A stretch of DNA of 64,000 nt from Trebouxia sp. TZW2008. Lineage: Eukaryota > Chlorophyta > Trebouxiophyceae > Trebouxiales > Trebouxiaceae. Each line of letters starts with the position of its first letter. Positions within the stretch are counted from its first letter, which is position 1. Shown piece after piece: positions 1-64,000 of the stretch. Both the position numbers and the translations under genes were made by a program. Below the pieces are notes generated by a model. It did not search any database. It had not been told where the DNA came from and worked only from the letters and a program-made list of their open reading frames with translations. The stretch lies in the NCBI GenBank assembly GCA_002118135.1, contig BDIU01000050.1, forward strand, positions 62,001 to 126,000. The letters run 5' to 3'.

Positions 1-91
1 GAGAGTGGCAATGCTCCTTGTGCATGAGCGCACAATCCTACCCCTTGCTCTGTCAAGCTGTAAAGCAATTCATGGCTCTATTCTACTGCAG

Positions 92-1675
92 TTCTTTGAG
101 AAGGAGGGGTGCAAGATGGTGGAGATGAGCTGTGAGGAGCACGACAGGCAGGCTGCCAGCACCCAATTCATCACACACACAGTGGGCAGAGTGCTGGGAG
201 CCATGGAGCTGCAAGCCACACCCATTGACACCAGGCAAGCTGCTTTCACCAGACGTAGTAAACGAGCTTGTCGGGTCTTGACATCAGTGCACTAAATGCA
301 CACAGCGGGCTGATTGCTGGGAGTCATGGAGCTGCAGGCCACGCCGATTGACACCAAGCAAGCTTGCCATCTGCGGTAGCCTAAGCCTTCTGTTGGCATC
401 TGCAACTCCAAAAAGGGAAACAGAATGATGTTGATTGACTCAGAAAGCTTCTCAGCGAACAGCCGTTCCCTCTAGGCATTTTGTGCAGTCAAATCCTATG
501 CCTGGTGTGTGATATCTGTCAAGCTTACATACAATATGGCGTCATCAGATGGACATGGAATTATGCAGTTGTGCTTGCTGGCCAAGGTTGCAGTTGTGAA
601 TCCAGTAAACAAAAGCATGCTGATCTGTGTAGTGCACTGATGTTGCGCAGCAGGGTGCCTCTTAGCTTCATGTTTGGCAACATGAAATCAGTCTGCGCCA
701 CAAGCGCAACATGCAGCCTGCAAGTTATGCAGGCCTGCAGACTACATGCTGTGACGTTTCACAGAATATCTATGGCACCCTTTGCGCTGCATGCGGGAGC
801 CAATATAGTCTTCATGCATGACTCATGAAATACTAATGTCAATCTTGAGATCAACACAACACAGGGGTTAAGCTATGCTTGCCTTCTTCTATATCTTTTG
901 TACGCAAAGCCTTCAGCCTGACTGGACGGCATTTGGTTGCAGAGGGTTCAAGAGCCTACTGGACCTTGTGGATAACACAACGCACGACTCCTTCGAGCTA
1001 TACTATGGGCTCTTCATGTACAATCAGGTAAGGGACGTGCACAGCAAATTAGGCAATACTGCAACCGGCACCGCTTTGGGTGTGAGTATGAACTCAGTAT
1101 GAAATGCTTGCATGCTCTGAGCAGAGCAACTTCATCCTAAGTGTTTCAAGCATTGTGGAGGGACCATCTGCAACATCGCTCTGTCTTTCCACAAGCACCT
1201 GAGGCTGATGCCCAGTAGTACACACTCAGAGGCAACATCAGCTTTCATCTACATGCATTGCAAGGCGTGTTATTTGCACATGTTCTGCCTGATGTGAGGC
1301 AACTCATCGGCTGCCGCCTGTGTGCTTTGTATGCCCTGAACAGCATGGCATCTTTTGCCAGGTGCCTGCAAATGGTGCTGTCATGTCTTTGAATTCAAAC
1401 CACTCTTGCAGAATGCGACAGAAGAGCTAGAGAGGCTTGGATACGCCTTTGACGCTGTCAAGAAGCAGTTGCTAGGCCGTTTGCATGAGCTCGCCAGAAA
1501 GCAGATTGGCTTTGACACTGCGCCAGTGAACTCAGTCCTTCAACATCACAATGGGAATGCAACAAACGGCTCAAATGGTAGCTCTGGTTCGAAATCCTAC
1601 ACAGGCATGCCTGAAGTTACTGATGCAGTCTCTCAAACGTTTGTTGACCAACCTGATGACAAGGCTGTCCGCTGA
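92..1675 (+). CDS. TYRA: Arogenate dehydrogenase (TyrA type), C-terminal exons
   Basis: This is the 3' part of a plant-type arogenate dehydrogenase, which oxidatively decarboxylates arogenate to tyrosine with NADP+, normally in the plastid. Three exons are visible: 92-234, 943-1027 and 1412-1675 (TGA). The joins are phase-consistent (phase 2, then phase 0). They read through GCKMVEMSCEEHDRQAAS, then TPIDTRGFKSLLDLVDNTT, then YYGLFMYNQNATEELERL, which match the conserved C-terminal helical region of plant TyrA proteins. The last ~35 residues (Gly/Asn/Ser-rich) are a non-conserved tail. The N-terminal NADP-binding domain lies upstream of the window, so the gene is partial. The first intron is GC-AG (donor CAG|GCAAGC at 235); the second is GT-AG. 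Assignment to arogenate rather than prephenate dehydrogenase rests on similarity to plant enzymes only. Confidence 0.93.
299..366 (+). repeat. Decayed copy of the upstream TyrA exon end plus donor
   Basis: About 68 bp resemble positions 174-243, the end of the first visible TyrA exon including its GC donor, 125 bp upstream. Shared stretches include GGAG.CATGGAGCTGCA and GATTGACACCA.GCAAGC. The copy lies inside the first intron, and base changes have put it out of frame. It is a pseudo-exon end carrying its own GC-type donor-like site. Confidence 0.8.
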
Positions 1676-4392
1676 AATCATAAGTATGAGAGTGAGAGCG
1701 TTTTGCAGTGAGATATCAAGTGGATATGAGTGTCTATGATATGTGAGTGACAGAGTCATCTGGTCTGTGCTGTAATGGCCGTCTTGCACACAGCGTTTTC
1801 AGTTCTTGAGTAGGTCACAGTGAGAATGTGCTGCTAATTCAGGGTTTGTCTCAGTAGTGCAGCACAGTGTGACTACGCAAAACGCACGGTGTGTGATGAA
1901 TTAAACAAAATCATCAAAATGTGTGAGAGTCGATTTAGGGTCCACGACTGAACTGGCAAGCAGAAGCGCTCCGAGCTCGTCTCATCTCGTAGTTCTGCAC
2001 CTTCAGTCAAGGTTTGGTCAGTGATCGCGTCGCATCTAATCTTGGGCCTATTGGCCTGATGAAATATTAATTACAAGATCATTTTGACCAATGACAGAGC
2101 AAATTGTCCAAATTGGCTGTGCTGACCAGTGCGAGCATAAACATAATCAACAATGACAACAAGAGGTTTAAACAACTGGCCATCACTACACTTTGCACCC
2201 ACTGAAACTAGTTAAGTAAATTGAAGCAAAAAACTGTGTCATCCATGAGGCAAGCTTGACGCGTGGTGAGCAAAGATGAAATGTTGCAAGAGAAAGCTGT
2301 GCACACTCTTCATACAATCCATTGCAAGAACATTGGTACCAATGATTTCTAATTTTCCAAGCACGCTTTTTCAAGTAATGGCACCAAAAGCTGCTGTGTG
2401 AAACGGCAGCCAGCCTGCTGTAGGAACAATCTGGATGGTTACACTTGGCTGTTGACCGCCAAAAAAATTCTATAGAGCTTCCAGCTTTCAACTTCCACAG
2501 ACTTTGCTGAACAGAACACACTGACTCGCTGAGAAATCCTCGCCAAGCAGCTCCTGACCAAGCAAACATGCTGCAGCTGGCCACAAAGTGTGTAATAGCG
2601 GGGCATTTGATAGTGACAGAGGAAAACTACTTCTGTCTGGACTGGTTCGCAGCCTGCCCCCTACTGACGATCAAGACGGTCAAGTCGGTGCCTGTGCAAA
2701 ACATCCTGCCTGCTGCTCATCCGCGCACACAAATGCCAGTCAACAAGCCCCAGCATTGTCGGCGTGTAGTTGTCACCAGGTGTTAACGCAGGCGCTGTAC
2801 ACACAACTGGTCAGTCCCTACTCCAGACACCTGCAGACCAACAGGAAAAGATCTGACTACCTTCAGCACAATGTTGGGCTTTGGTTGCAGAGGTGCGTAG
2901 GTCCGGCGTGGGCGCAGATGCTGGTGCACTGATTCGAGGCGCAGGGCCATAGAATGTAACGTATGCTGTTTTCGCGCAGATTCAGATGGTGCAGATTCAT
3001 GGATGCTAAATACTGCCTTATCTGATGACTAATAACAAAATTCACAAAGTTCAAGTACATGACACAAAACCTCATGCACACATGAAAATGGCTCGAGTTG
3101 ATCATGATCTGTCCAGGTTTTTGGGCATGCAAACTTTCATCAGATGAGACAATTATTATTTTCGTCCTGTTTGGGGCCTATTCGCGTCGCATCAATAACG
3201 AATTGTGGGACTTAGACTTTTCGGTTTTCAGTGTCCCTTGTACGCAAGCATACAGGAAAGCCCCTTGCACACCCTTCCGACAAGATTAGTAATGGGCCGA
3301 GAAAGACCCCCTCAACATTTGACACATGTGCTCGAGAGATTTGGCGGAGTGTAACGGGTTGATAGCTGAGGAAAGGCGCTCGTTGACATGTAGTGCACTG
3401 CCTCAGCAACAGTATAACGTATAAACGTTTTACGTATAACAGTTACATGGAGTGTACTTGCTTCGTAAAATTTACAATTATGTCTAATGCAAACTCTGTC
3501 ACTACTGCATGTCAATGAATAGCGCTTTCTAATTTCGCAATTCACCACTTCGTAATGACATATAGTACTATCATGCTATTGTTTGTATGTTGTGCTGATG
3601 ACGAAGATGTGTGCAAATCAAGCAAATGGTCTGACCACCAAAGCAATTGGCATATATGGTTGTCTCTTGCGCCTGATACCATTGTCCTTGAGGCGCACTA
3701 ACATAGAGTGTCATCATCAGTTATTGTTGCTGCCTCTTAATGCAGCGCTAGCGCACCGCAAAATGGAGTCTGAAAATAGGATATTGATTGGCTCGCGTTC
3801 TGGAACGTTCTTGGGAGGTTTGTATCTAACTTACATTCCTGTTACGCAAGCTAGGCATGCATGAGGCAACAAGACATAGGGCCATCAAAGCAGCGTCTGG
3901 CTACACAGTGTAGGTTCAATTGCAAACTGTAAGTCTTCTTACTATATAGTCCTCTATATGATAAGAGGCGTCTTTAGTGCAATGCAACATCATAGAAGCT
4001 AAGAAATATTGACGCGGGTCAAACGATTCAGAGGTAGTGAGCGTCGTATAGCCAAGCATCAGCTGACACAAGCTTTTTGAAAAGGCTAAGCACTGAACAT
4101 ACATCTTATACCTTGAAGACATCAGAGACTTCTGCTTTGTGAAATGTATTGTCATTTGTTACAATCAAACGCTGCAGACATGCAAAATACTGTGCATACA
4201 TTGGTGAATCAAATTATGGGTACTGCAACTACACATTGCTAAGGTGCATGCTTGAACACGTTGCTTGAGTGCTTCCACATGCACAAGAAACACAAATGTT
4301 CAGGAACACATCATGACCGTAAGGCTGCACCACTTGTAACTCAAAAGCCTGCGCAACAAAGTGCATGTAACTCATATACATGCATTTGTGGC
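1676..4392. other. Intergenic stretch without a supported gene
   Basis: The stretch lies between the TyrA stop and the 3' end of the minus-strand nuclease-like gene. Open frames of 60-130 codons exist on both strands (for example 2186-2584 minus and 2588-2932 plus). None shows recognisable domains or splice-consistent neighbours, and I treat them as chance. The only structured signal I see is the decayed copy at 3300-3548. Confidence 0.6.
3300..3548 (-). pseudogene. Decayed partial copy of the nuclease-like gene's last exon
   Basis: Two blocks match pieces of the last exon and its upstream intron at 4400-4850. Around 3310-3350, CCTCAA..TTGACACATGTGCT and TTTGGCGGAGTG match 4695-4735. Around 3455-3530, GCTTCGTAAAATTTA and CTGTCACTA..GCATG with AATGGCGCTTT-like sequence match 4411-4425 and 4780-4812. 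The order is preserved only loosely and frames are broken. It is probably a relic of a tandem duplication of the neighbouring gene. Confidence 0.5.
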
Positions 4393-6018: not shown

Positions 6019-6470
6019 CTGCTCTGGTCCTACATGTCATGCAAACGCTTAGCGACTTGTTAAGCCATACTCAGGTTCAAGGAGTGTCAAACAAGGACAA
6101 TGAGATATCAAGTGCAAGATCAATTGGTCATCGGCACACAGTGCATGACTTCATGAGCTCAGGCCTGAGTTTTTGGCTGAAGAGACTAATAGCTCCTGTT
6201 CATCTTGCCAAGCTCGCTTCAGTCATCAAAACAGAAGTGGCAGACACGCAACTTGAAGTGCAAAAGTGGCTGGAGGGCAATATAATGTGAACAGCCATTT
6301 ATCAGCTTTCTAAAATGTGCTACTTCTTGAAACCGGCGATGCATTGCGACGATTAAACATTCCTTGAGATGTGTAGTGCAAACTAGCTGGATGCCCTTAC
6401 ATATGGCCCTGTTTATACTAAACAGGAGTGTGAGGCAACAATTGAGACGCAACAGTAAAGTGATTGCGGC

Positions 6471-6626
6471 CTAGACTCGATCCAAGTCCTTGCTCAGCTC
6501 TGCCAACAACTCAAGGTCTCGAGTGCCCTTTTCTTCCTTCAATTCTGAAGCCTTTTGCTCCTCCAAGCCTTTTAGATCTTCTTCCAGCTCGGCCAGCTTA
6601 CTGCGAGAAGCACTGCTGGACGCCAT
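6471..6626 (-). CDS. Short charged coiled-coil ORF, possible first exon of the gene at 4393-6018
   Basis: An ATG at 6626 opens 51 codons beginning MASSSASRSKLAELEEDL. They are strongly Glu/Lys/Leu-rich with heptad spacing typical of a coiled coil, and TAG ends the frame at 6471. It is on the same strand as, and ~450 bp upstream of, the first phase-confirmed exon of the nuclease-like gene, so it may be its 5' exon. The only in-frame GT near the end (GTCTAG) is a poor donor, so I could not prove the splice. It could also be a very small separate protein. Confidence 0.4.
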   Translation of the reverse strand: MASSSASRSKLAELEEDLKGLEEQKASELKEEKGTRDLELLAELSKDLDRV

Positions 6627-7435: not shown

Positions 7436-10400
7436 ATGAAGGGCAACAAGCTTGCCAGAGACAACAGCATCACATGGCGCAAATGGCGCCAGACGACCAT
7501 CAAAGCATTTGTGGGGCTCAACATAGTGCTGATCATTGGGTTCTATGTGGCAACAAGCAGTTTCCATGGCGGCCTTGACCACATAGACCACTCAAGTTCA
7601 ACTGCGCAAAGTAGCAATGACAAAGGGCGGCAAGGTATGCTATGCACATGCCTTGTGTATTGTGGCTAATAGAGCTGTCATATAATAACGCCTTGTGAAT
7701 TGTTTCTCATGAACATCTCATACAAATAGATATTGACGCTGTTTCCACATCACTGCATTGAAGCCGCTGCATGATGGTGACTTGCTGGCAATCAAGAATG
7801 TATCAGCTGGAAGACTGCTGACCTTCACTGCAGGGCATATCCTCTGCAGAACTGAGCATGAATGCTTTTCCCAATTTGAGAGGGACAATAAGGCCCACTG
7901 TGATGGCATTGATGCTAACACAGCAGGAGACCACAAATACAAGCTGCATAGTGCCATTGGTCAGACAATGTAAAGTTGTCGAAATCCAGCATGCTTGCCT
8001 GATTCAAAAGGCTATTTGTATGCTGTGTAAGCTTCAAGTCTTGATGTCCTTCAGGCTGCCCCATGCAGGGCGTATACCTGCATGACCCATCATGAACACC
8101 ATCAGAGTTTGACAAGTGCGATGACAGCTGATGGCTGGCAAACAGCAAATGCAGGGTCAGGAGTGTAGTAATTTCTGTCACGCAGCATCCAGCAGCCTTA
8201 GGACATTTGCTTGTGGTACAGACCGCATGCTGGGTACTCAAGATGGCAGCCAACAGAAGGTGCTAATCCCAGCAGACCCCAATGGGGAGCAAGGGTTGTG
8301 ATCAGTGGCGCATCACAGGCAGCCTGGCATTGTTTCACATCACACTGTACTTCAACGGCCTTAACACCTTTCTCTCTGGTGCAGCTCGCATGCTGGGTGC
8401 TCAGGATGGCAGCCAACTGAAGGCGCTGACCTTAGCAGATCCCAATGGGCAGCAAGTGCTGTGGTCAGTGGCGCATCACAGGCAACAGAACAAAGCACGG
8501 AACTGTTTCACATCACCCTGTACTTCAACGGCCTCAACACCTTTCTCTCTGGTGCAGGACGCATGCTAGGGGCTCAAGACGGCAGCCAACAGAAGGTGCT
8601 GACCCTAGCAGACCCCAATGGGGGTGCAAGGGCCGTAGTCAATGGTGCGTCACAGGCTGAAGCTCACCTGAAGCAACTGAATCAGCCTCAGCACGTTCAA
8701 GTGGACAAGGCAGTTGTGGCAGAACAGCCCCGCTTCTACAAGGGCCCTATGGACGTGGATGAAGCCACCATGAAGCTGGCTGAGCAGATCAACCAGACTT
8801 ACTGGGATGATCCAGGTGCAGAGGCTGTATACCACTGATGCTTGCCTTGGCATCTTTTGATCAGGCAGATACAAGTACAGGATATGTTAGGCTGCATGGT
8901 GTTACTACAGTGTCAATTACACACAGCTTGCATCACGCTGCAGCTTTCCATGTAGTGTCTGACATAGCTGATGACATTTCAGAAGGCTGGGACAAGTCAG
9001 TCAGTCAGACAAGTCAGTGCTTTAGAAGCTGCATCTGAAATAGATGATCATTGCAGGTGAGAAGACATGGTGGAACAAGCCTGGCTTCCACCTGAGTTAC
9101 ATGGAGGATTACCCGCCCTACCCCTACCAGCGTATCAAGTCTGAGGATGGCAAAGACATTGGAGTGGTAGCACTCATTGCGCCTTATTATGATCTGACCT
9201 ACTACAGGGTGAACAACAGCCTCAACCTTTTTCTCAATCCTGTATTGTCATGAATGCTTAGGCTGAGTAGTGCTACTGTGCTTCTGCATCAAGCCCGAAT
9301 ATGGCAACGACACCAGAGGGCCGGTTTTGAGTGCTGCTGGCTAGCTCCTCCCCTGATATAAGCTACACATCATTTGCGTGTTTGCCCCACGTTATGTCTG
9401 GTCAAGCTGCCTAAACTGCCTTGTCCAGCTGTCCTTGTTCTGCCTCAAATCGGGTCGTGACATGGGCATGAATGTGGTAACAGCCACTGCGCCTGACGAC
9501 CATTGCGGTGACTTCAGGTTGACCGACTATGCATGCCTTTTTTTTGCACATGTACAGGCTTTGATCATGGTGTGGAGGCTGTCACTGGGGAAGGTTACTG
9601 TCACTTTTGCCTATGACAGCCTTTTCAGCATGATCAAGCGCTGCGCCTGGCGCAAAAGACTTAGTTGCAGCGTTGCCTCAGCTAAATTACTTGCATTGAC
9701 AAAGTGGTTGTTTGTATTTGCATGCTGTACAACACCTCATGTTTTGATTGGCCAAGTCGGCTGGAGAAACCTTAATCCTGCTCATCTTCATCTGGAACAC
9801 TGATCATGGCCAAAGCTCAACCGCCCTTGAGATGGTTTGCTCTTCAACCTACATAGCGTAACCTTGATGCGCTTGGCAATGTGCATGCAGGCAGAAATGG
9901 CACGGGCACTGTTCTGGCGCATGAAAGCCAACGGGCAAATTGTGATTGGCATCAGCAGCTATCAGGAGTTCCCTGGCCAGATCACCAACCCCTTTGATGA
10001 CAGGCACACCACAGAAGCTGACTGGGAAATCTACAAAGCATGTGATGGTTGGCTGCATTGCTTCAGGTCAGTACAGTTGCACACTATACTCAGAGTCAGC
10101 ATCTGCACTGTTCTGCACTAGCTCTGAGCTCAGCATTGAGTTAGCGTCGCCTGACTATGTGGTTGCATTGCTTCATGTCAGCACAGTCACACCGTAATTC
10201 CACTGCCTGTGCTTGCATGAAAGTTACTTCTGGTCTTGACATTGGTCTTGTTCTGCTAGCCTGTCTGACTGCTTTGGTTCAGTAAATAAGCTCTGTGATG
10301 TATGCTTTCAGCGAACTGCCTGCATGAGCATGGGGTCTGTCTCTAGGCTCAGCACTTTGCCCTGTGGCTGAGCTGCACTGCTTCAGGACAGCACATTAAC

Positions 10401-13400
10401 GCTGCAGCGCCACTGCCAGCATGTGCGTTGCTTCTATTTCTGGGCTCCGTGCGTTTGTTTGGTTTGATTTTGCCTAATTGCCTGGCTGCATTGCTTCAGC
10501 TTAGCATGGCTTTGGTCCAGTATCATGTCTAAAACAGCAGCTGTGATTTTCCCAGCATGGTTCTGTGAATAATGTTTGCGCCTTGCTTGATGTAGGGAGC
10601 CCGACAAGGTCATACCACCCGGGGTGCCGCGCATTCTCCTCAGTGAGTCAGACTTTCACAACCCTGAGCGCAGAGATGGCGGTAAGTTGCTGCTCCTGAG
10701 ACAAGTGCTGTCAACGTTTGCGTGCTAGCTTAATTGCTGTCTCTTCTTGAGATTGTCTTGCAATAGGACCTGTCAACAAGGAGAGAGTGCAATGGAAATC
10801 ATACGAATTAAAAGCTGTTATTATTGTCAAGGCTATGTCTTCAGCTAGTATGATGATTTCTGGCACATGTGTTGTTGTTAGCATGTTTGGTGCTGTTGGG
10901 TGCCCAAGAATTGTCTCCAATGTTGTGTGGCAATTGCTGTCACTTGTGCAGCAAAAGTCCTTTTTCCAAGAATTGAAATTTGTCTGTACAAGGGTAGTAT
11001 GCATCCATTTTCATATTTTCTTGAATGCGCATGCTAGACAGGCTCAGCAGGCACAGCTAGGTACATACTGGAGCAATCAACTATCTCTAATCAGTCTAGT
11101 CTTGCCAAACACTGAACCACATATACTGAATGTTGTAAGGGGAGAGACCTGTAACAAGATGTCTGCCAAGTGTCTCTGGGCTTATCCTTGGCCTTTGTGC
11201 TTGGTGACTGCTCGAACATAGAGCGGAAAGGCAATCTGTCCTGTCATATGCGTGCTGTGTCCGCCAGGCGTCTGTGCCTCCTATGGGTAACAACCTGATC
11301 AAGAGACTTAGATGGCTGGCTCACATAAAACGTATGCCACAGTACAGACTTCCATTTGAGTGTATGTTCGGGCAGTATGTATAGGTCAGCAGCATTTGAT
11401 ATGCTTATTGAATTCAAGAAATCCGGATAAAGAGTGTTTGCGAAGTGTGACCAAATCCGTCAACAACACCACCAGGATTGTCTGCATGCACCTTTGCCCT
11501 GCAAAACAGAGCACTATCTGATCCTGTAACAGCTCATTGCAGGTTTTTGTATCGTGCCTTTATGAGATTGTCTGTTTAAGGCTCCTGTCTCTTCTCAACA
11601 AGTTCAGGGATGGCCAGCAAGCTCCTGATGTTGCATTTGTGAGTGTTGTGATTCTGCACAGCTTCATCTCACTTTGCTCATTGTGTCTGCAAAGCTGACT
11701 CTCTGATTGGAGATTGATGACACTGCCTATGGCAACATCAGCAACACAGCTTGACAAGCGCTTGCCAAAACATCTGCAACAGCTTGCTTGTTTCTGGGCT
11801 TTGTCTCTTTTGCTTCCACACAAGCTGTGCTTACATGCAGGGTCCCCTGCAGCTGTATGTCCTTCAGGAGCTTCATGTCTTAGTCCACAGCAAACACAGC
11901 AGCATGTTGTTTTGTTTGATATGCACTAATGCCCGAAGTTTTTGTGGCATTTCAGGCTGTAGGAGCCTGTATAAGATGTGCTTGCGTTCAGGGAGGTTTT
12001 CTGTGTCTGTGTGCGCTACAGAGGATTCAGGCCATAGTCTACAGCAAACACAGCAGTAGGTTGCTTTGCTCACTGGTGACCAAGGCCCAGAGCATTTGCC
12101 GCACTTGAGGGTGCACAAGCCTGTAATGCATGCGCTTCCATTCAGGGACTTTCTCTGCAGCTGCATGTGCTCTGACAGCTTGAGGCCTGTGTCTCACCAA
12201 GCTTGGTTTGATCAGGGTCTGAGGTTGTCGGAGCACATTCAGCTGCAGGGCCGTGTTTGAGCTGCGCTTGCATGCAGGAAGCTCCCCTGCAGCTTTCTGT
12301 GCTATTGCAATTTCAGGTTTTCGGTCTCATCAAGCTTTGTCTGACCCAGGCCTGATACTGTCACAGAACATAAGGCTGCAGGATCCTGTGTGAAGTACAC
12401 TTGCATGCATGCAACAGTCTACAGCTCCAGGGGTTGCAAAACAAGGCAACAAATGTGCCACACTGAGCATTACTACGATTTGCATCTTCTGCTTCTGAGT
12501 CATCTGTACATTCACAAAGTTCTGCTGCACTCGTATGTGCTGTAGAAGCTTCAAGTCTAGGTCTCACCAAGCTTCCGGCCTCGGTAAGACTTGGACCCGA
12601 TGCTTTTGTAGCATATGAGGCTGCACTTGCATGTGAGGCAGCATCTACAGCCACTTAAGTTGGTAGATTGCACCAACCTTGCCTTCACAGAAATTGAAGC
12701 TGTAGGTTGATGCTTTCTGGTCTGAGCCTCTTTTTGCTTCCATTCCAGCTGTGCTTGCATGCATGGCTTTCCTTGCAGCCTTACAAGCCTCACACACTGC
12801 AGGAGCTTGAGGCTTTGGTCTGTAACGATCCAAGTAGCAGCAGCTTGCCCTGTTTGGTACAATACAGAGTCCCAAGCTTTTGTAGTACATAAGGCTGCGG
12901 CGACTTGTGTGAGCTGGGCTTGCCTGCCAGCAGTCTCCTTTGAATTATTGCAAACGTTATGCCTATTTGGTACAGTACAGAGTCTCAAGCTGTTGTACTA
13001 CACCAGGCTGCGGCGACTTGTGTGAGCTGGGCTTGCCTGCCACCTCTCTCCTATGAATGATTGCAAACGTCAAGTTGGCGTCACCGCAAACAGAGCTGCA
13101 GTCTGCCACTTGAGCTGTTAAGTAAGCTGTGCAAACAACATCACATTGCTGCTGTCTCTCCTCTCACTCTTCTGCTTCTGAGTTCATTCTGCTTGCAGGG
13201 GTCTTCCTGCAGCCAGGGGCCCTAAGCAGCCTTGCAAATGTTGCACTGCAGTCGCTGCAATACAACAACACAGCTGCAACTTGCCTCTTGCGCTTGTGAC
13301 TTGCCTGTGCCTGCATGCAGGGGGTTCCTTGCAGCCCTGGGGGCTGGAAAAGCTATACGACGTCGCATACAGCAACCAAGGCGGCGAGTGGAATGACTGG

Positions 13401-47800: not shown

Positions 47801-49347
47801 GCGGTCACCGTTTGTTTCACCACTTTGATTGTGATTTGAACAAGGTGATACAGGTGGCAGAGTCACATGCAGCTGAGTGGAATCACTGACGGTGATGCCG
47901 TCTTCCTGCACCGCCAAAGCAGCTATGCCAAAGAGCACGCTAAGGGGCAGCCCTCCACACAATACTACATGCCCTCCCCTAGTGACAGGTCACACATCCG
48001 TTCTGCATTGTGAATGCTGAGTACAATGATCCTGTTGTCACATGTCTGCTCCATCCTTCAACGCTACATGCCCTCCCCCGGTGACAGGTCAGACATCTAT
48101 ACAATGGTCAACACTGAGTATCATGAACATGTTGTCAAGCATGCTTGCCTTGTCCTGAGGAACGAGTTGTATTCCTGCATTGCTAAAGCAGCTATGCCAA
48201 GGAGCGCGCTAAGGGCCATCCCTCCACCCAATACTACATGCCCTCTCCCAGTGACAGGTCAGACCTGCGCTGCATTGTCAATGCTTATAGAACAAACGTG
48301 CTGCTGTCAAGGGTGCTTTGCTTGACCTCAGTCGTTGCACTGTTGATCTGCAGCTATGAAGTGTGCAGTATTGCATGACACTGGGAACATTGCAGCCCAC
48401 CCTCTGCTGTTTAGAAGGTGCATCAAAAGTCTCGGTGTGAAGGGTGTTTGAAGCATATGCAACTATTGTGCTGTTGGTACACCTGCCTGGACGTGCCATT
48501 GACCCAATTTGTGCACTAGGTCTTTGATGAGTTTGCCAGCAACAGTCAGGTACAAGCAAAGCGCTAGGCAACTGTGATTGACATCTGAAACCCCTCTTGG
48601 GCAACACCTGACAGTAGCAACCTTGCAGAGGATTGTCTGCACACCACTTCACTACAGTTTCAGAGCGCAAAGGCTTTGCCAAATGCTTGACATCAGCAGC
48701 TTTGTTTGCAGGGGAGTCTCTGCATGGTATCAGTGGCTAGACAGAAGGGGTGGTGGCGGGCCAAAATATGAGGGCCAGACCCAACCTGCTCTCTTCCAGA
48801 ATGACATGGGCAATGTGGAACGGCGAGTAATGTTGGACAGGAGCAACCACGTGCGCAACTGTTCATCGTGTACCAAGGTAAGTTGTAGCTGCAAATATCT
48901 CCATGCTGCCCTGACTAGATCTTGAATCACACTTTGACAGTAGCAAATCAGTAAAGGTGAAGATGCACAATCATTTTGTCCATTGCTACATGGCCTATGG
49001 TGCAATGCATACCTGCATTTACCTGGGACATTTACCCCTCAGTCATTGATTGTAGTAACTGGTTGTGTAGCAGGCTCTGTAATTAGTTTGCTGATATTGA
49101 CCATACACTTTTGTCATAAATCATGCAGGCTATGCAAAATACTCAGAAGCTGCAAGAGGCTTCAAAGTTCTCTGCTGTAGCAGCAGTCTTGGGCACAGCA
49201 TATCTGTTGGGTCAGGGCACAGACTTCCTATCTGTGCCTGTGCTTGCCAGCTTCATACTGGGAGCAGCATCTGTAGTAGCCAACAAGAAGCTACAGCAGC
49301 TTGAAAAGCATTTTGGGTTCTTGGATTGGGATCACTCTGAGCATTGA
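41880..49347 (+). CDS. PAO: Pheophorbide a oxygenase-family Rieske monooxygenase (PAO/TIC55/PTC52 type)
   Basis: Twelve exons join in perfect phase: 41880-42074, 42254-42392, 42618-42684, 43089-43191, 43585-43774, 44787-44907, 46763-46918, 47338-47544, 47854-47988, 48520-48549, 48712-48877 and 49129-49347. They give ~575 residues. The N-terminus is a basic, Ser/Arg-rich chloroplast transit peptide. The Rieske ligands are in LDLCPHR and [11 protein letters not shown]. The mononuclear iron site is [15 protein letters not shown] (D and two His). The C-terminal [11 protein letters not shown] motif (CxxC) and two hydrophobic segments at the end are typical of PAO, TIC55 and PTC52. PAO opens the pheophorbide a ring in chlorophyll breakdown; the exact subfamily is not decided here. 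The intron after 44907 is GC-AG. Copies of exons 5, 6 and 9 litter the introns. Confidence 0.92.
43370..43640 (+). repeat. Three copies of Rieske-gene exon 5 start with acceptor
   Basis: TGCAGAT.GGGCA.TCTGACAAG and GTATGCCTGCCAGAACAGC occur at 43371-43425 and in the true exon at 43581-43635. A poorer version (TTGGGCATTTCACAACAATC, then TGTCTGCCAGAACAGC) lies at 43485-43535. The first copy would be read [10 protein letters not shown] after the shared part and lacks the rest of the exon. Confidence 0.9.
43800..44160 (+). repeat. Decayed copies of Rieske-gene exon 5 end with donor
   Basis: The real exon end (43680-43774: TGGGCTGACAGCAGCCC, GAGAGCAGCATGCAAGCACC, then GAAG|GTAAG) is repeated at about 43803-43905 (TGGGCTGACAGCAGCCCTGA, then GATGAAG|GTGAC). 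It recurs at 43967-44062 (TGCTGACAGCAGCCCTCGAG, then CTGAAG|GTTAC), with a trace at 44120-44160. Confidence 0.88.
44340..44907 (+). repeat. Four tandem copies of Rieske-gene exon 6 (catalytic iron-site exon)
   Basis: Each unit starts TTGCAGAT.GGGCATGGAC.TATCAGC, at 44349, 44497, 44636 and 44781, with period ~140-148 bp. Unit 1 diverges after the FEF codons and loses the HxxxxH part. Unit 2 has a TAG in the GSF region. Unit 3 has a TAG in place of a Met-Glu stretch and a frame change. Unit 4 is intact and encodes the iron ligands. All four keep a perfect acceptor. Confidence 0.95.
46315..46425 (+). repeat. TCAC microsatellite
   Basis: (TCAC)n with occasional ACACTC interruptions, ~110 bp, in the Rieske-gene intron between exons 6 and 7. 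Confidence 0.95.
46510..46656. repeat. Imperfect hairpin (fold-back) element
   Basis: The left arm (46510-46577, including TTTTGCCAACTTCTCAGCCAC and GCAGTACA.TCTCTT) is the inverted complement of the right arm (about 46590-46656, AAGACACTGTACTGC, then GTGGCTGAGAAATTGGCAGA). Arms are ~65 bp with mismatches and the loop ~12 bp. Both strands can be read as a similar short peptide (FSAT.xQDG.QY), as expected of a palindrome. It could be a small fold-back transposon remnant or a hairpin-RNA source. Confidence 0.8.
47895..48285 (+). repeat. Copies of Rieske-gene exon 9 end with donor
   Basis: The real exon end at 47915-47988 (AAAGCAGCTATGCCAA, CAATACTACATGCCCTC, then GTGACAG|GTCA) is repeated at about 48056-48130 (CTACATGCCCTCCCCCGGTG, then ACAG|GTCAG) and 48180-48282 (AAAGCAGCTATGCCAAGGAG, then ACAG|GTCAG). 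The downstream intron sequence CTGCATTGT.AATGCT is included in the units. Confidence 0.9.
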
Positions 49348-53618: not shown

Positions 53619-54029
53619 GGCTTCGAAGCCGGTAGGTCAGAAGTAAGAGACCGCCAGATCAGACTGCATCGACGAACATGCACATGCAAACATTCTGTGA
53701 CTTGAAGTCTGACATCGATGCGCACAACGAAGTTTAGCAAATCGCGTTTGACTGAGCACTTGAGTCTTCTGAGTCAAACCTGTCAAGCAAAGTGCAGAGC
53801 GCAAGAAATTGCCGTTGCCAACAACTCGACGGGCGTATGGCCGAAAGCGGCAGGGCTCAGTGATTGATGCGGTTAGCTGCAGGGCATGACGTACCTTTAG
53901 GAGACTGCACGCACTTCGCAAGCCAGACAGGCCAGCATGCAAGGCAACGACCTTGAACGAACTGGCTCAGAGCATCATTCCATGTAAATTTAACGGTTCT
54001 GAGCTCTACCTCCGTGGAGGTTCGCTCAC
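53619..54029. promoter_or_regulatory. 411-bp divergent promoter region (BAP31 and menin-like genes)
   Basis: The two start codons face away from each other across this stretch, so it must contain both promoters and leaders. I see no defined element. It is GC-richer than the flanking introns. Confidence 0.5.
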
Positions 54030-57000
54030 ATGGTACATCCTGTCACAGCACTGCTGCAAAGCCTCATAGAGCAAGAGCTTGGTTCAGCTGACTTGAACAT
54101 TGCCAAAGTCTCTATTGCTCTGGGGGCTGTTGAGACCCCACTGACCAAGAAAGACGCTGCGCAACAGACTTGGCCTGCACACCTATTGGTAAACAGCCTG
54201 CTAGAGACAGAAAAGTTATAGTCACATGTTTGAGCAACCCAAGTTAGTCAGCACCTATTGCAGGCAGAGGTCGATGAATACCTGGCTATCTTTCAGACTT
54301 TTGTGGCTGACGTTGACAGGCAGCTCAGCTCAAAGCAACTAGACTTGCCAGTAAGCTTTTCCAGATACTTTGCATTGACCCTGCAACAGACATGCTGAAG
54401 ATGAGAGCATGAGTCACTGACTGCACTGAGCATTGCAGCAATCTGCTAACAGCATCTCATTGCACTTGCATCCTGCTTGTCTGATGTGCATGCTACACTT
54501 TGTGTGACCCGCCCAGCACTGCACAACATGCCACAGACTGTTGGATCCTCAGAGTTACGTGTTGCTTTTGCAACACCAGCAATGCTGATGTCGGTGTGAG
54601 GTGATTGTGAACTGATGATGAGCTGGACGAACTGATTGTGTCACATGACGCCTGTAGGGCAAAGTGAAGGTTGTGGCAGACTCAGTCTGGTCCAAATTGA
54701 CTGGAGTCTTTGTCAATGATGTACTTCATGTACAGGTACATTCAATTTACATGTTCTGCAGTTAACTGAGTCACACTCCTGCCCACAGCATCTCATCTGC
54801 AGACATTCTTGCTTTGCCTTCAAGCTCTGCTACTTGCCGCTCACCTCCAACAAGCTGGTCATGCATATGTGCAGCATGCAAACATCTCCACTCAGCACTT
54901 TCAAGCAACCAAAATATGCAGAGCATGATTATTGTCCACTCATCACAAAGTATCTGTACAGCATAAGCCTAGTGACAATAGCCGCATACTCACAACTGTG
55001 CGTGTGTGCAACGTGTGGACACCTCTCTTCACACTGCAAGCACATGCCTAGTGAACACTGACAATTTTGTCACCTAGGGCATGCAGCTGGTGTTGTTTAC
55101 TGCTCATCACTATGCATCTGTACAGCATTGAATTGGCAACCACAGCTGCATACTCACCAATGTGCGTGTGTGCAGCATGTGTACACTTTCACTCAGCATC
55201 TGAAGCACACTACATGTTTAGCTATCACCAATAGGTTTGCCACTTAGGGCATGCAGCTGACGTCATCTTCTGCTCATCACTATGCATCTGTACAGCATTT
55301 GAACTGGCAAGCACAGCTGCGGACTCACCAATGTGTTTGTGTGCAGCATGTGTACACCTTCACTCAGCACTTGAAGCATGGAACCAAGAGCCCCAAAAGG
55401 CAGCTGGACTGTGGTGGTGTAGTGACTACTGTATTAGCTGCATGCCTGATGTTGGCTTCGGAGCACGGCCACACGGATTTGGCAGCATGCAAGTTTCAGG
55501 CTAGGCCCTGACTTTCAGCTTGCTGTTGTGCTGCGCTCTTGATTTGCACAGCACCCGCTTTCATGCTAAACGCGTCACAGCAAACTCTGTATATGCTGCC
55601 TGATGTTGGGTTGGGTTGCTAGCTGAACAGTAGCCCCTGACGGTGCGCCTCCATTTGTGCTGTCAAAACAATTGTAGCAAGTTTTGCAAGCAAGATGAGA
55701 TGCACAGTAGGTCACATTTGGTCTGCACATGGGCTGGTCCAATGGCAATTGTGTCGCCGACCATGCACTGGCTGTTCCTGAGCGTCAAGTATACCAAAGA
55801 CTTGCAAATTTCATCAGGCTGTGTCTGTCGTGCAGGTGTCTGAGGATCACTGCTGGCTGAACAGTGACCCCAAAAGGGGCAAGGAAGGCCACCGTTGAAG
55901 TGCCAAGGGACAGCGCTGTAAACTACTGTGGACCAATGCTCAAAGTATAGTGGTCACATGGATATGACAAAAGCCTTAAACCAGGCTCTGTCTGTCATGC
56001 AGGTGTCTGAGGATCACTGCTGGCTGAACAGTGACCCCAAGGGGGCCAGGGAGGGCACTATTGAGGTCACAGTGGACAGTGCAGCCAAGAGGGCGCTGCC
56101 TGTGAATGCTGCAGCCTGGCAAGGGTGGCTCTACTCTGGAGGTCATGCTCCGCTTTGCTCAAGACAGGTATGGACTGCTACTCAGCTCTTGAACTACTGC
56201 ACCACCCCCTTTCCCACACAGGCACACGCCAAACCCCCCTTTCCCCCCATACCGCAACAGTGTTTTGTTTAGGAGTGATGTTGAAACCAAAGCGCTGCCT
56301 GTGAATGGTCCAGCCTGGGAAGGATAGTTGTAGCCAGGAGGGCATGCCCCCTCTGCTCTCAACAGGTATGGACGGTTGCTGCCCAGTGCTTTGTTGGGGC
56401 TCCTCCTTTTACACTTTGCTGGACAGTAGTGTTGCGTGTAAGTGCTGCAGCTTGACAGGGGCGGCCTTTTCCAGGCAGGCATGGCCCTCTCTCCTCCCGT
56501 CAGGTCTGAGTTGCTGCCTCACCAAAATGTGTTGTCTTGACAACCCCTGTCTAGACTGTGAAAAGAATATTGGTGACATTAAACATCCTCACCATTGTCA
56601 TGATAGCAATGACAGGCAGTGACAGCAGTAGCTAGCATGACAGCGTTAGCAGTAGTACTCCAGTGTTACTAATGATCCTGTACTGTTGATGCAGATGACT
56701 GTGACAGCTATGATCACGTCCATGAACCCTTCCATCACAGCTAGACAGAACAGTGGCCAAGATTCTGAAGAGGTAACGGCCTTCTTACTTTCTCACGGTA
56801 TGTCGGCAATCTGGCTGGGGCTGGCAAATTCAGTGCAGCCTTTGGCTTGCTGACTGAGGTGCACAGCCTGCATCGTTTGTTTATGTTCAAGAGCTCCTAA
56901 GCATGCTACATGGACTTTCGAGGCATTTGCTGATCAAATTTGTTGCTGTTGTCTCTTGCATGATCTGCATGAGATAGCACAAGAAATGACGCCCAAGCTG

Positions 57001-60000
57001 TGCATAAGACACAAACACACACGGTCAAAACAAATGTGATGTTGTCAAATGCCTGACACATGTCAAGTCACCACTAGTCCTCCAGTCACTGTCACTCTCA
57101 GATAGTGTGCAGGATCATTCATTGCAAATACGCTCCTCCACCACACTCAAGCTCCAATGTCTTGCAGTCCATGTTCAGTGATTTATTCTTATGTTGGCTG
57201 CTTTGGTCTCCAAGCAGAAAATTGTCCTTACTCAGAGGATCTACTGCATTTTGCCTGCATTGCTCGGTTCCCAATTGCATTGTCCTTACATTGACGATGT
57301 CCTCACATTGATTGTCCTTACAAAGAGAAGTCACTGCAGTTGAGGAGTCATTGGTCTGACTGCAGATGCAAAGCCTCCAGCGCCATCTTCTGCAGATGTT
57401 ACAGAAACAGCATCCTGACCTCATGTACCCTGCTGCTCTTGGCTGCTTGGCTGACCTGACTGAGGTGAAAAGCCAACTCTGTGCGCTTGCTGTCGTTTTT
57501 GTGTCAAACAGTAACTTGACTGCTGCTGCTGCTGCTGCTGCTGCTCATGCTGCTGCTCATGCTGCTGCTCATGCTGTTGTTGCAGCTGCTATTGTTTGTT
57601 GCTTTTCACACTTCTGGCAATTGACATTGACAAAATGTTGGCAGTGGCATTGAAAGTTGACAGTCCCGGGACTGCTTTTGCTGGCCATGAGCCAGAACTG
57701 CAGCAATCATTTCATGCACTGGCTAGCTGCTGCCACAGCATGGCCAAGTGTTCAAGGATGATGCAACACATCTTGGAAGCATTGTGTCTGTTGCGTAATT
57801 GCCACATTCTTGACAATTCAAAGCAGACCTGTACTGTGCAGATACAGAAGCAGGACGCTATGGATCAAGCTTTAGCAGCCCAGGACCAAAGCAAGCTGCA
57901 ACAGCTTATTAGCAATGATGACGCACAGGTGCTGCCCTGTAGCATGGCCATCTTTGTTTACATGCAATCAAGCATTTGCGTGCTGTCATAAATGCTATGA
58001 CTGCCGCATGCAATGTGTCAGTGCTTGTTGGCGGCCTTGCTCGTGGTCTCTGCACTTCTGCATTATGGCATGTACTTCAGCTTTTGTAGCACGCTTTGAA
58101 GTATAAATGCTGTTCATGTCACAATGTTGAAATAAGTGATGTGGTGCATGAGCCAAGGTTGCACGCTGGTGTAAAGTAATAATGACCAACATTGCTAATA
58201 CTCACACCTGACATACTGCACCTGCTATTGCTACTGAAATACTATCACGTGACCATTAGAACTTGGCTCAAGCTGGAAAACCCTGACTGTACTGCCCCTG
58301 CAAATATATAGATGCCAAATTTCTGAACGGCTTCTGACAACAGCAACTACAGAAATGCTGTCTAAAGACAAAGTCTGTTCTCTCTTTCCTGAATGTCAGG
58401 ATGGCATGCTAAATTAATTTTGCATGCTGCAGAGCTTGTTTGATCTGGCAATCAAGAAGTCCCTTGAGGAGGGGCTGGGAGGGGGTAGGCAGTGGTATCC
58501 CCACACCTACATGTTTGGATACCTCATGAGGCGGGCTGAATTTGTGGTCAAGCAAGCTATGCCACTGCTGGGTATGCCAAAGCACTAAAACTTTCATGAC
58601 ACAGTTGTCATGCTGTCTTAGGGCGGTCTGCTGCGCCGGCATCACTGCCCTATAGACAGGTGTTTGGTGTAGCTATCAAAGAGTCCTCCAAGAGGCCAGG
58701 CAGTGGTACCCCCACACCTCAATGTTGAACTACCTCATGCAGCGGGCTGAGTTTGTTGTCAAGCATGCCATGATGCTGCTAGGTATGCCAAATCACTAAA
58801 AGGTGCATAGCACAGTATAACACTTGCACTAGGGCGGTCTGCTGCGCCAGCATTGTGTGCTTTAAACAGTGTCTCATGTAGCTGTCAGAAAGTCCCTTTA
58901 ATGGGACTAAAAAGGGGGTCAAACCTCCTGACCCTCCAGACAGGGCAATGTCAGCCTTCAACCAATATGTTTGGCTACCTCATGAGGCGGGCTGAGCTTG
59001 TTGTCAAGCATGCCCTGACGCTGCTATGTAGGTCCAAGAAGTAGGCAAGCATATGAAGTGCATGACATGCTGCACTGGGATTTGTAGGCTGGGCTGGGAT
59101 ATATATGCTGTTCTAGAGTGTATATGCTGTGCCCAAGTTGGTATGCTGTGCCATTTGTTTCTTTGCAGATGTCTTAAGGCTCGAAGGGTGGCTTGAGAAG
59201 CCAGGCCTTCTTGGACAAGGCAACACAACCCTAGGTCTAAATTTTAATGTCCCAGCTGTAGTCCAGCAGGTTTACAAGCCTCTACACTAAGACTCTAGCC
59301 TTACAAGCATGCATCACTTGTTCAGTGCCTTTGCACAGCATGTACGCCTGCATTTCTAAGTCTGGCACGTAATCGCTTGCAGGTGAAGAGACATCAATGC
59401 AGCACGCAGAGCCCGCTATGCAGGCTGCCATGCACAGCCTGGGCTCACAGGGGGGCGCTGCTGTCTTGCTGCACTACAGGTGACCGTTACACACCATTGC
59501 ATATGCTGCTGTCTGTGCCTGACACAAAAGACAAGGGAAAGCTAACACTGGTAAGTGCCTGATGTGCAGCTTGGGCTCACAAGGTGGTGCTGCTGACAGG
59601 TGACCATTGTAGCTGCCGCTGTCGTTGCATGCAAGCTGATACAAAAGACAAGGTAGATGCGTGCTGTTTGGCATCATCATGGAAGCTTCTGCACACAAAT
59701 CCGGCCTAAAATGTATCTGATTTGCTGGAAAATGCTGATTTGTGCATGCAGCTTTCATGCTGAGCGCTTGAAGTGTGTGAATCTTGAGCAAGCAGTGACA
59801 TGCGAAACGAGCAGGCTGTATGGCATGAAAAGCCGTGTGATGTATCTCCTGCTGTGCAAGCTGAAACTCATCCATGTTGGCTTTTGTTGCAGCTTGACCA
59901 CATTCCAGCATATATATATCAAGCAGCTTTCGGGCTGCCTCTATAGACAGAGGCTCCCGTTATGACACCTATACCTATACCTTAGACTTTGCTTTTTCTG

Positions 60001-60597: not shown

Positions 60598-61257
60598 TTC
60601 TCGACAACAATCATGGTCACTTTGGCAAACCCATGAGAAAGGCTTTTTGAAATGGCTGTTGACTCCATTTGTCTTTTACAGTAGGACCGAAACTGCAACT
60701 ACATCCTCTGTCTGCTCGAATGTGGTGACCCTAAACATCAGATCTGAATCTAGAGCCTGCCAATTTTGCCTCAGCAGGTAGCAGTCACAGCTTTGACCAA
60801 GGAGACTTTGAGTGACCTCATGCGCATAACATTGTGACTACAGAACACGATGCGAAGCTGCAGCAGCTAATATTGTTGCATCAACAGCTGTGCAGTGATA
60901 GGACTTGAGCTGTAGTGCATCAGGCATTGTGCACTGATCTAAAACAACTTCATGGGCTGCTTGGTATGACAGTGTATTGAGTGTCTGACGCCAGTGCAAT
61001 GCTTGTCACGTTGCAGCTACCCGCAGAGCTACCCACCCTCCCCCCTCCCCTCCAGGGTTTCCCACGTAGGGTACAGACATCAGCACCTACGCAGGAAGCT
61101 GTTGTGAGCTGGCGTTATGTGCTCACTATTTGCTTCGCGAGTCTCGCACTGCGGCATTTCGCTCTGCTGCTGTAAAGCACGTCAACACGTTGAGCAGCAT
61201 CTGCCCTGCAAGCCAACTGTTCGCAACCTGAAGGGGCGTCGCGAGGGCTAAGGGCGT
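60598..61257. other. Intergenic stretch between menin-like and CTU1 genes
   Basis: This is the 3' flank of the menin-like gene and promoter of CTU1. A pyrimidine run (CCCTCCCCCCTCCCCTCC) lies at 61036-61053. No gene supported. Confidence 0.5.
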
Positions 61258-64000
61258 ATGGTCCAGCTTTGCGGACGGTGCAACAGCCAAAAAGCCGCGT
61301 TGAGGCGTCCCAAGACTTTTGTCCAGGTCGGATCGACTCTCAAAATACTGCGTGCTTCCACCAGGCATCGACTTGAGCCCGTGCCGCCAACAAGCCCTTA
61401 AGTTGTCACAGCTATATAAGCAATATAGAGGCTTGCTGGAGCTGCCAGGCAACTCTCAAGTGCGCAACTAATGGTCTGTACTCTGCAGCTGTGCCAGGAG
61501 TGCTTCTTTCAAGTGTTTGAGGATGAGGTGCATCAAACCATTGTTACCAACAAGCTGTTCAAACCAGGGGAGAAGGTTGCTATAGGCGCCTCAGGCAAGC
61601 TGCATGTTACGATCAATGCATTTGCTGCATCTGCAACAGCACACGTATGCTATTCAGCATTTGCAAGGCGCACCCTGCATGATGCATTCATCCTACATTG
61701 GTTTGCCTGCCTACACTTGGCAGAAGGCCATTGGATTGCAATCACTATGCAGCATTCAGCACATCAGCCAGTGGCATATGCCAAAAGCTTGATTTTGGTG
61801 TAAGCAATTGGCACACTTTGGAATGTTCTGGCTGGACCTTGACAGATTGTTGTGACGGAATTTTGCTGTGTGCAGGTGGCAAAGATTCCACTGTATTGGC
61901 GCATCTGCTTACCTTGCTGAACAAGCGCCACAACTATGGCTTAAACCTTTTCCTGCTCTCCATTGATGAGGGGATCACAGGTAGTTTGGTTGTACAATTG
62001 CCATGACCAATTTGCAAGATTGCAAGCTGCCCACTGACATAGCTATGGCTTGTGCCAGCATGTGCAAAGGCATGTTATTGTCACAGCCTTGAATGAAGCC
62101 CTGTGAGTCCACCACCTGCTTATGTACCTCTTACATTGCTATCACAGCCTCCACGGTCCCTGGTAGTAGAGGCTCTGCTTGTGATCTTTTGCCTTGGCTG
62201 TGATGATTGCTCATGCAGGCTATCGTGATGACTCACTTGAGACAGTCAAGCGCACCGAGTAGCAGTACCAGATTCCGCTGGAAGTCGTGTCTTACAAGCA
62301 GCTCTATCGATGGACCATGCATGAAATTGTGAAAGAGATTGGGACCTGTTACTATTTGTATGTGGCTGTCATGTTTGTTGCAGGCTATCGTGATGACTCA
62401 CTTGAGACAGTGAAGCGCAACGAGCAGCAGTACCAGATTCCGCTGGAAGTGGTGTCTTACAAACAGCTGTATGGCTGGACCATGGATGAAATTGTGAAGG
62501 AGATTGGCACCAAGAACAACTGCACCTTCTGTGGGGTGTTCAGGCGGCAAGCGCTTGACAGAGGAGCTTTCATGATGAAGGTGAATTACTGCGCATAATA
62601 TCGTGCACATAATATTGAACACAGCTTCCGCAAGTGTAGTCATCATACATGCAGGTGTAGCCCAAATACTATCTTGCAAAACCGGCTTGTTTTGCTGATG
62701 TATTTACACAGTGTATGACTTAGTTACATAGCCGCACTGGCATGCTGACTTGTGGCTGTGGGCATCGTAGCTCAACAATACCCGCTGCACATCATTGCAG
62801 GCATGTGCATCTGATGCACCATACTGTTTCCAAGTTTTGTGCATCACCGCCTCAGCTCAATGTCTGTGTCACTGAATTTTGTGGACCATGGGCACAGTTC
62901 TACATCAATGTTCAATGCCTTGCTTCAACGTTTTGTTCGTCAGCAGCCTGTAGAATCTGCTATGTACAGGCCGACAAGGTTGCTACTAGACCAACTATAA
63001 GTTTTGCTGCTGTGTGCAGGCTGACAAGATTGCTACTGGGCACAATGCAGATGACATTGCTGAGACTGTGCTACTCAATATACTGAGAGGGGACTTGCCT
63101 CGCCTGTCAAGATGTGCCTCAATCATCACTGGTAAGCAATCTTGCCCTTATGCTCATAAATGCTAGTATTGTGCTTAATCAGATTAAATGAACCAGGTTT
63201 TCCAGTGTCATGATTCTTTTTGCTATGCTTCTCAAGATGTGCCTCAACCATCGTTGGTAAGAAGAGTTGCCCTCGTACTCACTGACGTTAACAATGTGCC
63301 TATGATGAGCCAGGCTAGATCCTTAGCAGCTGTACTCACATGTGTTCACATTGTAGTGATACACAGAACTTAGCATGGCCCTTGGGCAGAGATGACATGC
63401 ATGTATTGAATGGCTCCGGCATCATAGAAGATCAAAGCGCCCTGAGCTTTGATATTGATGTTGTGCATATTCCAGGTGAGGATGGGGAGCTTCCCAGGGT
63501 GAAGCCTTTCAAGTACACCTACCAAAAAGAAATTGTCATGTATGCTTACTTCAAGAGGCTTGACTACTTCTCCACTGAATGCATTTACGCTCCCTTTGCG
63601 GCTAGAGGGCTGGCCAGAGACTTTGTCAAAGATCTTGAGGTGACAACTTGTTTGTACAATGCTTTGCATCCTGTCTTTCTCAAGGCGTTCAATACTTTGA
63701 CACCTGGGATTCTTGCCTGAGCTTATTGCTTGTGACTGACAGCAGCTGTTCAGCCGCAGCACAGCTCAGTCAGGACATCCTCGGCTGCAGACGGCGGCAG
63801 ACGGCTGCAGATCTAGTCATCGCATGCTGAGACATAGATTGTTGTGTGTCACTGGACATCCACAGACGCTTTGCATGATGGTGCCATGAGCAATGCAAAA
63901 CACCAACAGCCTCACAACTGCTTCTCAAAGTTGCACACCAACACTGACTCTGATGCAGCAGTGCCGCCATAACACATGATGCTGTCGTGCTTGACGTCAT
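61258..64000 (+). CDS. CTU1: Cytoplasmic tRNA 2-thiolation protein 1 (CTU1/NCS6), C-terminus outside window
   Basis: CTU1 with CTU2 thiolates the wobble uridine of tRNA-Lys, -Glu and -Gln. Six phase-consistent exons are seen: 61258-61326, 61489-61594, 61876-61980, 62384-62580, 63020-63131 and 63476-63639. Together they give 251 residues. Diagnostic motifs: an N-terminal zinc site split across exons (MVQLCGRCN and [15 protein letters not shown]), the PP-loop ATPase [15 protein letters not shown] across a GC-AG intron, [19 protein letters not shown], the catalytic CxxC ([14 protein letters not shown]), [20 protein letters not shown] and [20 protein letters not shown]. The remaining C-terminal exon (expected IIDIIHSGE-like) is not found before 64000. 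The ATG at 61258 gives the usual short N-terminus. Confidence 0.95.
62214..62515 (+). repeat. Stop-bearing copy of a CTU1 exon next to the intact one
   Basis: Positions 62214-62350 copy 62380-62516 (166 bp offset), including the acceptor GCAGGCTATCGTGATGACTC. The upstream copy has TAG in place of the CAG/GAG codon after KRTE, and CGATGG for GGCTGG. It loses the NNCTFC part. Only the second copy encodes a working exon. Confidence 0.95.
62965..63290 (+). repeat. Copies of both ends of a CTU1 exon
   Basis: Before exon 63020-63131, 62965-63001 (TACAGGCCGACAAGGTTGCTAC) copies its acceptor and start. After it, 63225-63288 (CAAGATGTGCCTCAACCATC, then GTTG|GTAAGA, then TTGCCCT) copies its end and donor (CAAGATGTGCCTCAATCATC, ACTG|GTAAGC, TTGCCCT). 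Confidence 0.9.

Follow-up and report, generated by a model that had tools for sequence, protein, structure and literature searches.

Short tandem duplications and decayed exon-edge copies in predicted introns of a Trebouxia genome

The genome of the green alga Trebouxia sp. TZW2008 (GenBank assembly GCA_002118135.1; 68.5 Mb in 527 contigs) carries many short local duplications, a large share of which copy the edge of a predicted exon, with its splice site, into the neighboring predicted intron. We describe them in a 64,000-nucleotide stretch of contig BDIU01000050.1 (C49, positions 62,001–126,000; hereafter the window) and in stretches sampled from other contigs. Across 314 kb, 128 independent repeat sets cover 40,177 bases, or 12.8%, a density measured within this one genome. 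The copies fall within a narrow range of unit size, run in direct orientation, are decayed and, where they repeat an exon edge, are placed intronward of the splice site predicted to be real. We consider it probable that a general process of tandem duplication is responsible and that the exon-edge sets are its survivors, tolerated since splicing still joins the original exons.

Abundance, decay and position of the copies

Repeats were detected by self-comparison, which reported direct and inverted local matches at shifts of up to 1500 bp with cut-offs of 34 bits for matches and 45 bits for sets; detection is less complete for units shorter than 60 bp at such cut-offs. A 264-kb sample consisted of the window and 20 sampled 10-kb stretches from other contigs, and five further stretches, fetched afterwards and excluded from gene-finder training, served as a held-out test and brought the total to 314 kb (24 sequences, counting two 20-kb stretches formed by joining). 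Exons were predicted with our own two-strand gene finder, trained without supervision on the 264 kb, which settled on well-defined splice sites (AG|GTRAG donor, TGCAG|G acceptor). Retraining with repeats masked barely changed the labels (60,679 exon bases common to the 61,454 and 63,457 of the two models). The distinction between intron and intergenic labels is unreliable, and "intron" means predicted intron throughout. For junction crossing and exon contact, each set is represented by its best pair.

Direct matches of at least 34 bits outnumbered inverted ones by 286 to 41 in the 264-kb sample, and since each of three shuffles yielded no direct match (and 3–5 inverted ones), chance similarity is excluded. 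At 45 bits, 211 direct matches formed 101 independent sets, and local inverted repeats had overlapping arms in 19 of 24 cases. In the held-out stretches there were 64 direct matches against 5 inverted ones, and 27 sets at 45 bits. The earlier note on the window had proposed a genome-wide process, a view that is supported by the sampled and held-out stretches, which resemble the window in repeat density, in unit size and in the predominance of direct over inverted matches. Of the 24 sequences, 21 contain sets at 45 bits; among the others, L012 and L013 are 10-kb stretches of ordinary predicted exon density and L022 is one of low density.

The smallest shift was 60–220 bp in 117 of the 128 sets (median 145.5 bp, with shifts of up to 1500 bp allowed), which moves upward the period of about 40–170 bp given in the earlier note; a cut near 220 bp also appeared among matches of at least 34 bits in the 264-kb sample. 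Copies are adjacent or nearly so, the gap being at most 60 bp in 59 of 101 best pairs. In the best pairs of these 101 sets, the median match extended over 0.71 of the shift. The sets do not belong to the minisatellite class of many near-identical head-to-tail copies, as 78 of 101 span fewer than 3.5 units and the median best identity is 80%. One array of the 128 sets, at 44347–44883 of the window, was checked for dispersal and occurs at a single place in the assembly.

Copies of predicted exon sequence look like neutral relics. We compared exon and copy in 69 best pairs, dropping pairs with fewer than 30 exon bases or with a partner largely labeled as exon. Pooled over these copies (single sets may differ), differences at codon positions 1, 2 and 3 numbered 230/1779, 211/1777 and 426/1761 (0.129, 0.119 and 0.242), and the held-out stretches gave 41/344, 44/345 and 78/343. 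This pattern, roughly t, t and 2t, is that of an unconstrained copy beside an exon that changes mainly at third, silent positions. A stop or net frameshift was present in 30 of the 69 copies, including 25 of the 46 that are at least 60 nt long. Unit lengths showed no sign of selection for reading frame, since periods left remainders of 0, 1 and 2 on division by three in 45, 38 and 45 sets.

The position of exon-edge copies was scored for matches of at least 38 bits with shifts below 700 bp. Copies of an acceptor that were not themselves labeled exon lay upstream of the predicted real acceptor in 65 of 67 cases, and the corresponding copies of a donor lay downstream of the predicted real donor in 44 of 44. 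This polarity is partly built in, the intact copy being the one called as an exon; partners that did carry an exon label were 5 upstream and 2 downstream for acceptors, and 7 downstream and 4 upstream for donors. AG was retained in 57 of 67 acceptor copies and GT in 35 of 44 donor copies. When matches had to reach at least 20 columns into the intron, retention was 32/40 for AG and 24/32 for GT against a neutral expectation of ~0.65–0.71, so the decoy sites are neither purged nor clearly maintained. Selection for or against decoys was considered in view of an apparent excess of retained acceptor AG (64/73), but this excess is partly a bias of match ends and fell to 27/35 among matches that run deep into the intron and whose partner is not itself a predicted junction.

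Exon contact, junction crossing and competing explanations

The duplication process that we favor would copy a short segment head to tail in each event, probably when paired nicks or staggered breaks are filled in and joined. Predicted exons average ~126 bp, against ~150 bp for the units. A unit placed on coding sequence must therefore cross a junction in most positions, and an event reaching coding sequence would nearly always span a splice site because the exon is shorter than the unit. If an acceptor were spanned, the message would be kept by use of the distal acceptor, and if a donor were spanned, by use of the proximal donor. The spare exon edge would then pass into the intron and decay neutrally, leaving the intron longer by one unit. 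Where exons are short and introns long, splice sites are recognized by exon definition, and such an arrangement would weaken lone decoy acceptors and donors. The polarity of the edge copies can be read as the arrangement that permits the original message to be kept, and a spliceosome that disregards decoys, as the earlier note had suggested, would fit the presence of unpurged AG and GT.

When best pairs were moved at random within their own sequences over the 314 kb, junctions were crossed by 56 sets against 47.4 ± 5.0 expected, and predicted exons were touched by 81 of 128 against 60.4 ± 5.4, a number unreached in 300 trials. In the held-out stretches alone, crossing was at chance (9 vs 7.8, p 0.35) and exon contact was enriched (15/27 vs 9.8, p 0.03). 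The best pairs of 47 sets touch no predicted exon. Of the 27 independent sets in the window, 14 cross a predicted junction and 17 have contact with a predicted exon; the other 10 have no such contact, although one of them (36137–36746) has a weaker pair that does. These counts do not bear out the earlier note's claim that a splice site is nearly always part of what is copied, and they led us to reject a phenomenon confined to junctions. A process acting at junctions and expanding introns outward, also proposed in the earlier note together with a count of junction-spanning repeats against random positions, is at best partly supported, the outcome differing from null to null: that count shows a weak excess over 314 kb and none beyond chance in the held-out stretches, exon contact is clearly in excess, and crossing rises above chance in the two tests described next.

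Several results weigh against a process indifferent to exons. Circular shifts of whole sets in the 264-kb sample gave 54 observed crossings against 42.4 (p 0.01), with exon contact at 70 against 52.7 (p 0.002). A second null was obtained by simulation, in which duplications were inserted and decayed with the exon copy conserved, after which detection and gene finding were rerun. Among 59 two-copy sets, 42 touched an exon against 20–22 simulated, an excess that uniform placement does not predict, and 27 crossed a junction against 18–19 (p 0.02–0.04 at the exon-score cut-off used and 0.002–0.016 at two others). Exon-internal pairs numbered 2 of 59 against 0.2 expected, the simulation discarding fully exonic events. 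Large indels, when added, roughly reproduced identity and gap rate and, in three runs out of four, put a fraction of 0.10–0.12 of match ends close to a junction (0.05 in the fourth; observed 0.13), but left exon contact at 0.28–0.49 against 0.71 observed and junction crossing at 0.18–0.23 against 0.46. Match ends 0–10 bp past a splice site made up 20 of 143 measured ends, compared with 6.5–12 simulated (scaled). Beyond the match, the rest of the presumed unit kept clear similarity in a flank (z above 2) in 16 of the 44 pairs that touch an exon and 4 of the 13 that do not; z is biased upward for left flanks, whose controls were read in the opposite direction. Similarity that ends at splice sites, together with weak flanks, therefore points to larger intron indels or to some copies that are not plain head-to-tail duplicates. 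To the same side of the balance belong the absence of any 45-bit set from L012, L013 and L022, exon calls that come from an unsupervised gene finder, and the scarcity of young copies (identity of at least 90% in 4 of 101 best pairs), which could reflect a past burst, the rapid disappearance of identical copies or their collapse in the assembly.

Part of the exon excess is explained by slower loss of similarity where one of the two copies is conserved. Age alone raises exon contact through detection, the fraction reaching 0.54–0.78 among pairs detected at per-branch divergences above ~0.19, but the ages fitted from pair identities are mostly younger than this. High-indel runs reached an exon fraction of 0.65–0.75 at a gap rate several times too high, and no parameter set that also matched the gap rate removed the excess, which amounts to ~1.3–2.5-fold. 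An initial account of junction crossing as purely geometric (118 of 211 matches against 107) was dropped, since shifts and simulations left an exon excess. In our view, geometry and survival account for most junction crossing. They leave a moderate exon excess, behind which may lie a detection effect or a real exon preference.

Such a preference is the core of the strongest rival, a junction-directed duplication in which copying favors exon edges (for example, through nucleosomes, pausing polymerase or R-loops on exons) and introns grow outward. It draws on the excess of exon contact in random placement, simulation and held-out data, on the crossing excess under circular shift and simulation, and on the surplus of match ends just beyond junctions. 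Against it, the excess of crossing is slight over 314 kb and indistinguishable from chance in the held-out stretches, more than a third of sets lack exon contact by best pair (47/128), and old exon copies stay detectable for longer because one copy is conserved; on balance we think this rival unlikely. A more specific proposal, which we regard as slightly less likely again and put forward as speculation, holds that chromatin sets the unit at about one nucleosome length (60–220 bp, center ~145), that exon-bearing nucleosomes are preferred, and that duplication is the main route of intron growth, with intact decoys ignored under exon definition. A unit of ~145 bp is near the length of a nucleosome or an Okazaki fragment, by our own comparison. 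In the part of the open-licence literature covered, we found no paper linking duplication size and nucleosomes.

That the copies are functional, either as alternative or mutually exclusive exons or as decoy sites kept for splicing regulation, is improbable. Thirty-nine of the 69 lack a stop or net frameshift (18 of these are shorter than 60 nt), and decoy AG and GT are retained slightly above the neutral expectation. Set against this are the unconstrained codon-position pattern, the breakage of over half of the copies of at least 60 nt, and the lack of any bias toward unit lengths in multiples of three. Coding function for the copies as a class was rejected on the codon-position pattern, which is not that of cassette or mutually exclusive exons. 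An individual exception may be the repeat at 3205–3548 of stretch L014, where a copy of an exon end aligns over 158 bp gap-free, has a donor-like end and is partly called as an exon below the score cut-off, all of which makes it a candidate for continued use.

Very improbable, in our judgment, is that the sets are left over from Rogers-type intron gain, in which tandem duplication of an AGGT segment inside an exon creates an intron. That model does start from tandem copies with splice sites and describes a known route, according to the parts of the literature covered (PMC3443670, PMC4974935), but the intron length equal to the duplication shift that it demands was found in 1 of 448 predicted introns, the result on which we rejected it, and sets that cross junctions copy a pre-existing predicted acceptor or donor. 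Assembly artefact, the refutation that the earlier note had foreseen, is the least credible explanation: judged from the assembled sequence, best pairs in the window are 68–96% identical and the copies have a neutral codon-position pattern, whereas artefactual copies would be near identical.

Repeat sets in the genes of the window

Decayed exon-edge copies with a splice site lie inside predicted introns of genes that the earlier note had named, for example in the Rieske/PaO, CTU1-like and SOS1-like genes. Several of those names are backed by Pfam: the spliced protein of the SOS1-like gene matches Na_H_Exchanger (E 3.6e-38), the DUF1295 protein matches DUF1295 (E 2.1e-29), and the Rieske/PaO protein matches PaO/Rieske when decoy-derived pieces are left out. 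Others scored below the cut-off (CTU1-like, ATP_bind_3 at 25.8 bits against 27; Menin-like, Menin at 15.1 bits against 23.6), and the proteins labeled TyrA and glycosyltransferase had no Pfam hit.

The SOS1-like gene, on the reverse strand, contains several sets. The donor end of exon 27255–27486 is copied at 27108–27198 (set 27108–27344; 89.1%, shift 145, with a 1-bp gap in the copy), and about three further copies repeat the acceptor and start of the same exon at 27356–27904 (Tandem Repeats Finder (TRF) period 139), with TATGCAG retained in the copies. At 28508–29047, about nine 58-bp units repeat the donor end of exon 28991–29243, the last unit being the exon's own end (TRF period 58, 6.6 copies, with matches to 29047). 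Copies also surround exon 29889–30045 (29681–30172; 83.7%, shift 190) and lie on the acceptor side of exon 35238–35399 (35276–35808; 73–83%, shifts 183 and 383). A tRNA-Arg (TCT) at 26339–26411 lies between two predicted SOS1-like exons on the same strand.

The remaining genes with copies are on the forward strand. Exon 43585–43774 of the Rieske/PaO gene is preceded by two copies of its acceptor and start (43369–43632; 96.4% over 55 bp at shift 209, with a middle copy at shift 110 and 68.5%), and decayed copies of the end and donor of that exon follow at 43680–44167 (81.4% at shift 128, and further shifts). Three decoys of TTGCAG plus exon start precede the real exon at 44787 (44347–44883; TRF period 146, 3.7 copies), and the end and donor of exon 47854–47988 are copied at 48064 and 48169 (47900–48285; 85.7% at shift 269 and 77.6% at shift 99). 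The Menin-like gene has an acceptor and exon-start copy upstream of the exon at 56003 (55815–56082; 85.3%, shift 167), an exon end and donor copy at 56093–56373 (79.5%, shift 199), for which exon bounds differ between two gene models, and two copies of the end and donor of exon 58433–58571 (58487–59038; 76.6% and 79.5%, shifts 211 and 456). In the CTU1-like gene, an acceptor and exon-start copy at 62195–62346, which contains an in-frame stop, matches 62363–62511 and lies upstream of exon 62384–62580 (set 62195–62511; 88.8%, shift 168).

Single sets include the DUF1295 gene, where the end and donor of exon 21114–21214 are copied at 21352–21440 (21187–21440; 82.0%, shift 165), and the gene labeled TyrA, where a stretch near the end of predicted exon 92–257 is copied at 299–364 (92–364; 87.9% over 66 bp, shift 123). 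Three copies of an acceptor and exon start at 8195–8657 have junctions at ~8222, 8385 and 8558, the last of which opens a long exon (shift 163, 80.7%). Away from predicted exons are a tandem pair of 113 bp at 12849–13070 (89.0%) and an old array at 11791–12779 (shifts 132 and 151; 68–79%). The window also contains imperfect palindromes at 9561–9637, 12155–12248 and 46510–46657, and its GC content is 47–50.5% in 4-kb blocks. Across the assembly, a Pfam model for light-harvesting proteins has 47 matches, which suggests a photosynthetic eukaryote.

Significance and comparison with known systems

Short duplications that cross a junction are known as single cases, and here recognizable copies make up 12.8% of sampled bases. 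Simple extrapolation from 128 sets in 314 kb suggests roughly 28,000 sets in the 68.5 Mb; if true, the genome would be a natural experiment on how the spliceosome chooses among similar acceptors and donors, and on the repair route that makes duplications of one unit size. The copies are also a warning for gene finders, because decoy exon edges resemble exons and some were called as exons by our own. In the part of the open-licence literature covered, we found no report of a genome with copies this dense and of such unit size.

Gao and Lynch in 2009 reportedly described internal gene duplication with intron creation. As far as that account goes, it resembles ours in its short within-gene duplications and in the absorption of the extra copy by splicing. 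The Trebouxia copies differ in occupying 12.8% of sampled bases and in their narrow 60–220 bp unit, and they seem to have enlarged existing introns rather than made new ones (1/448 fits creation).

Internal gene duplication and intron gain by tandem duplication are established processes in the portions of the literature on which the following comparisons draw (PMC3443670, PMC4974935, PMC2891723). In the potato RdRp gene, one young tandem duplication across an intron-exon boundary (the 3′ end of the intron and the start of the exon) produced a new intron, and an intron-internal 83-bp tandem duplication is likewise described (PMC4974935). The potato segment crosses the boundary as the acceptor-type sets do, whereas in Trebouxia junction crossing recurs in 56 of 128 sets, which are mostly old, with no sign of new introns. 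Among 25 novel intron positions in Drosophila, some are explained by duplicated coding sequence with a proto-splice site, and there, as here, exonic sequence is duplicated and one copy turns into intron (PMC2891723). Introners are similar in changing introns genome-wide, but no dispersed family was seen here, the one array checked being confined to a single place in the assembly (PMC9860276).

A candidate parallel for the duplicating step is fill-in by Pol alpha-primase where broken ends carry complementary 3′ overhangs and are then rejoined by end joining. It yields small tandem duplications, described as the commonest insertion under 100 bp in human DNA (PMC8355091). These share with the Trebouxia copies a short head-to-tail form; the Trebouxia units, known from sequence alone, are mostly longer, with a center at ~145 bp. 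The best reading of these comparisons is that internal duplication is already known and that its scale and unit size in this genome would be new.

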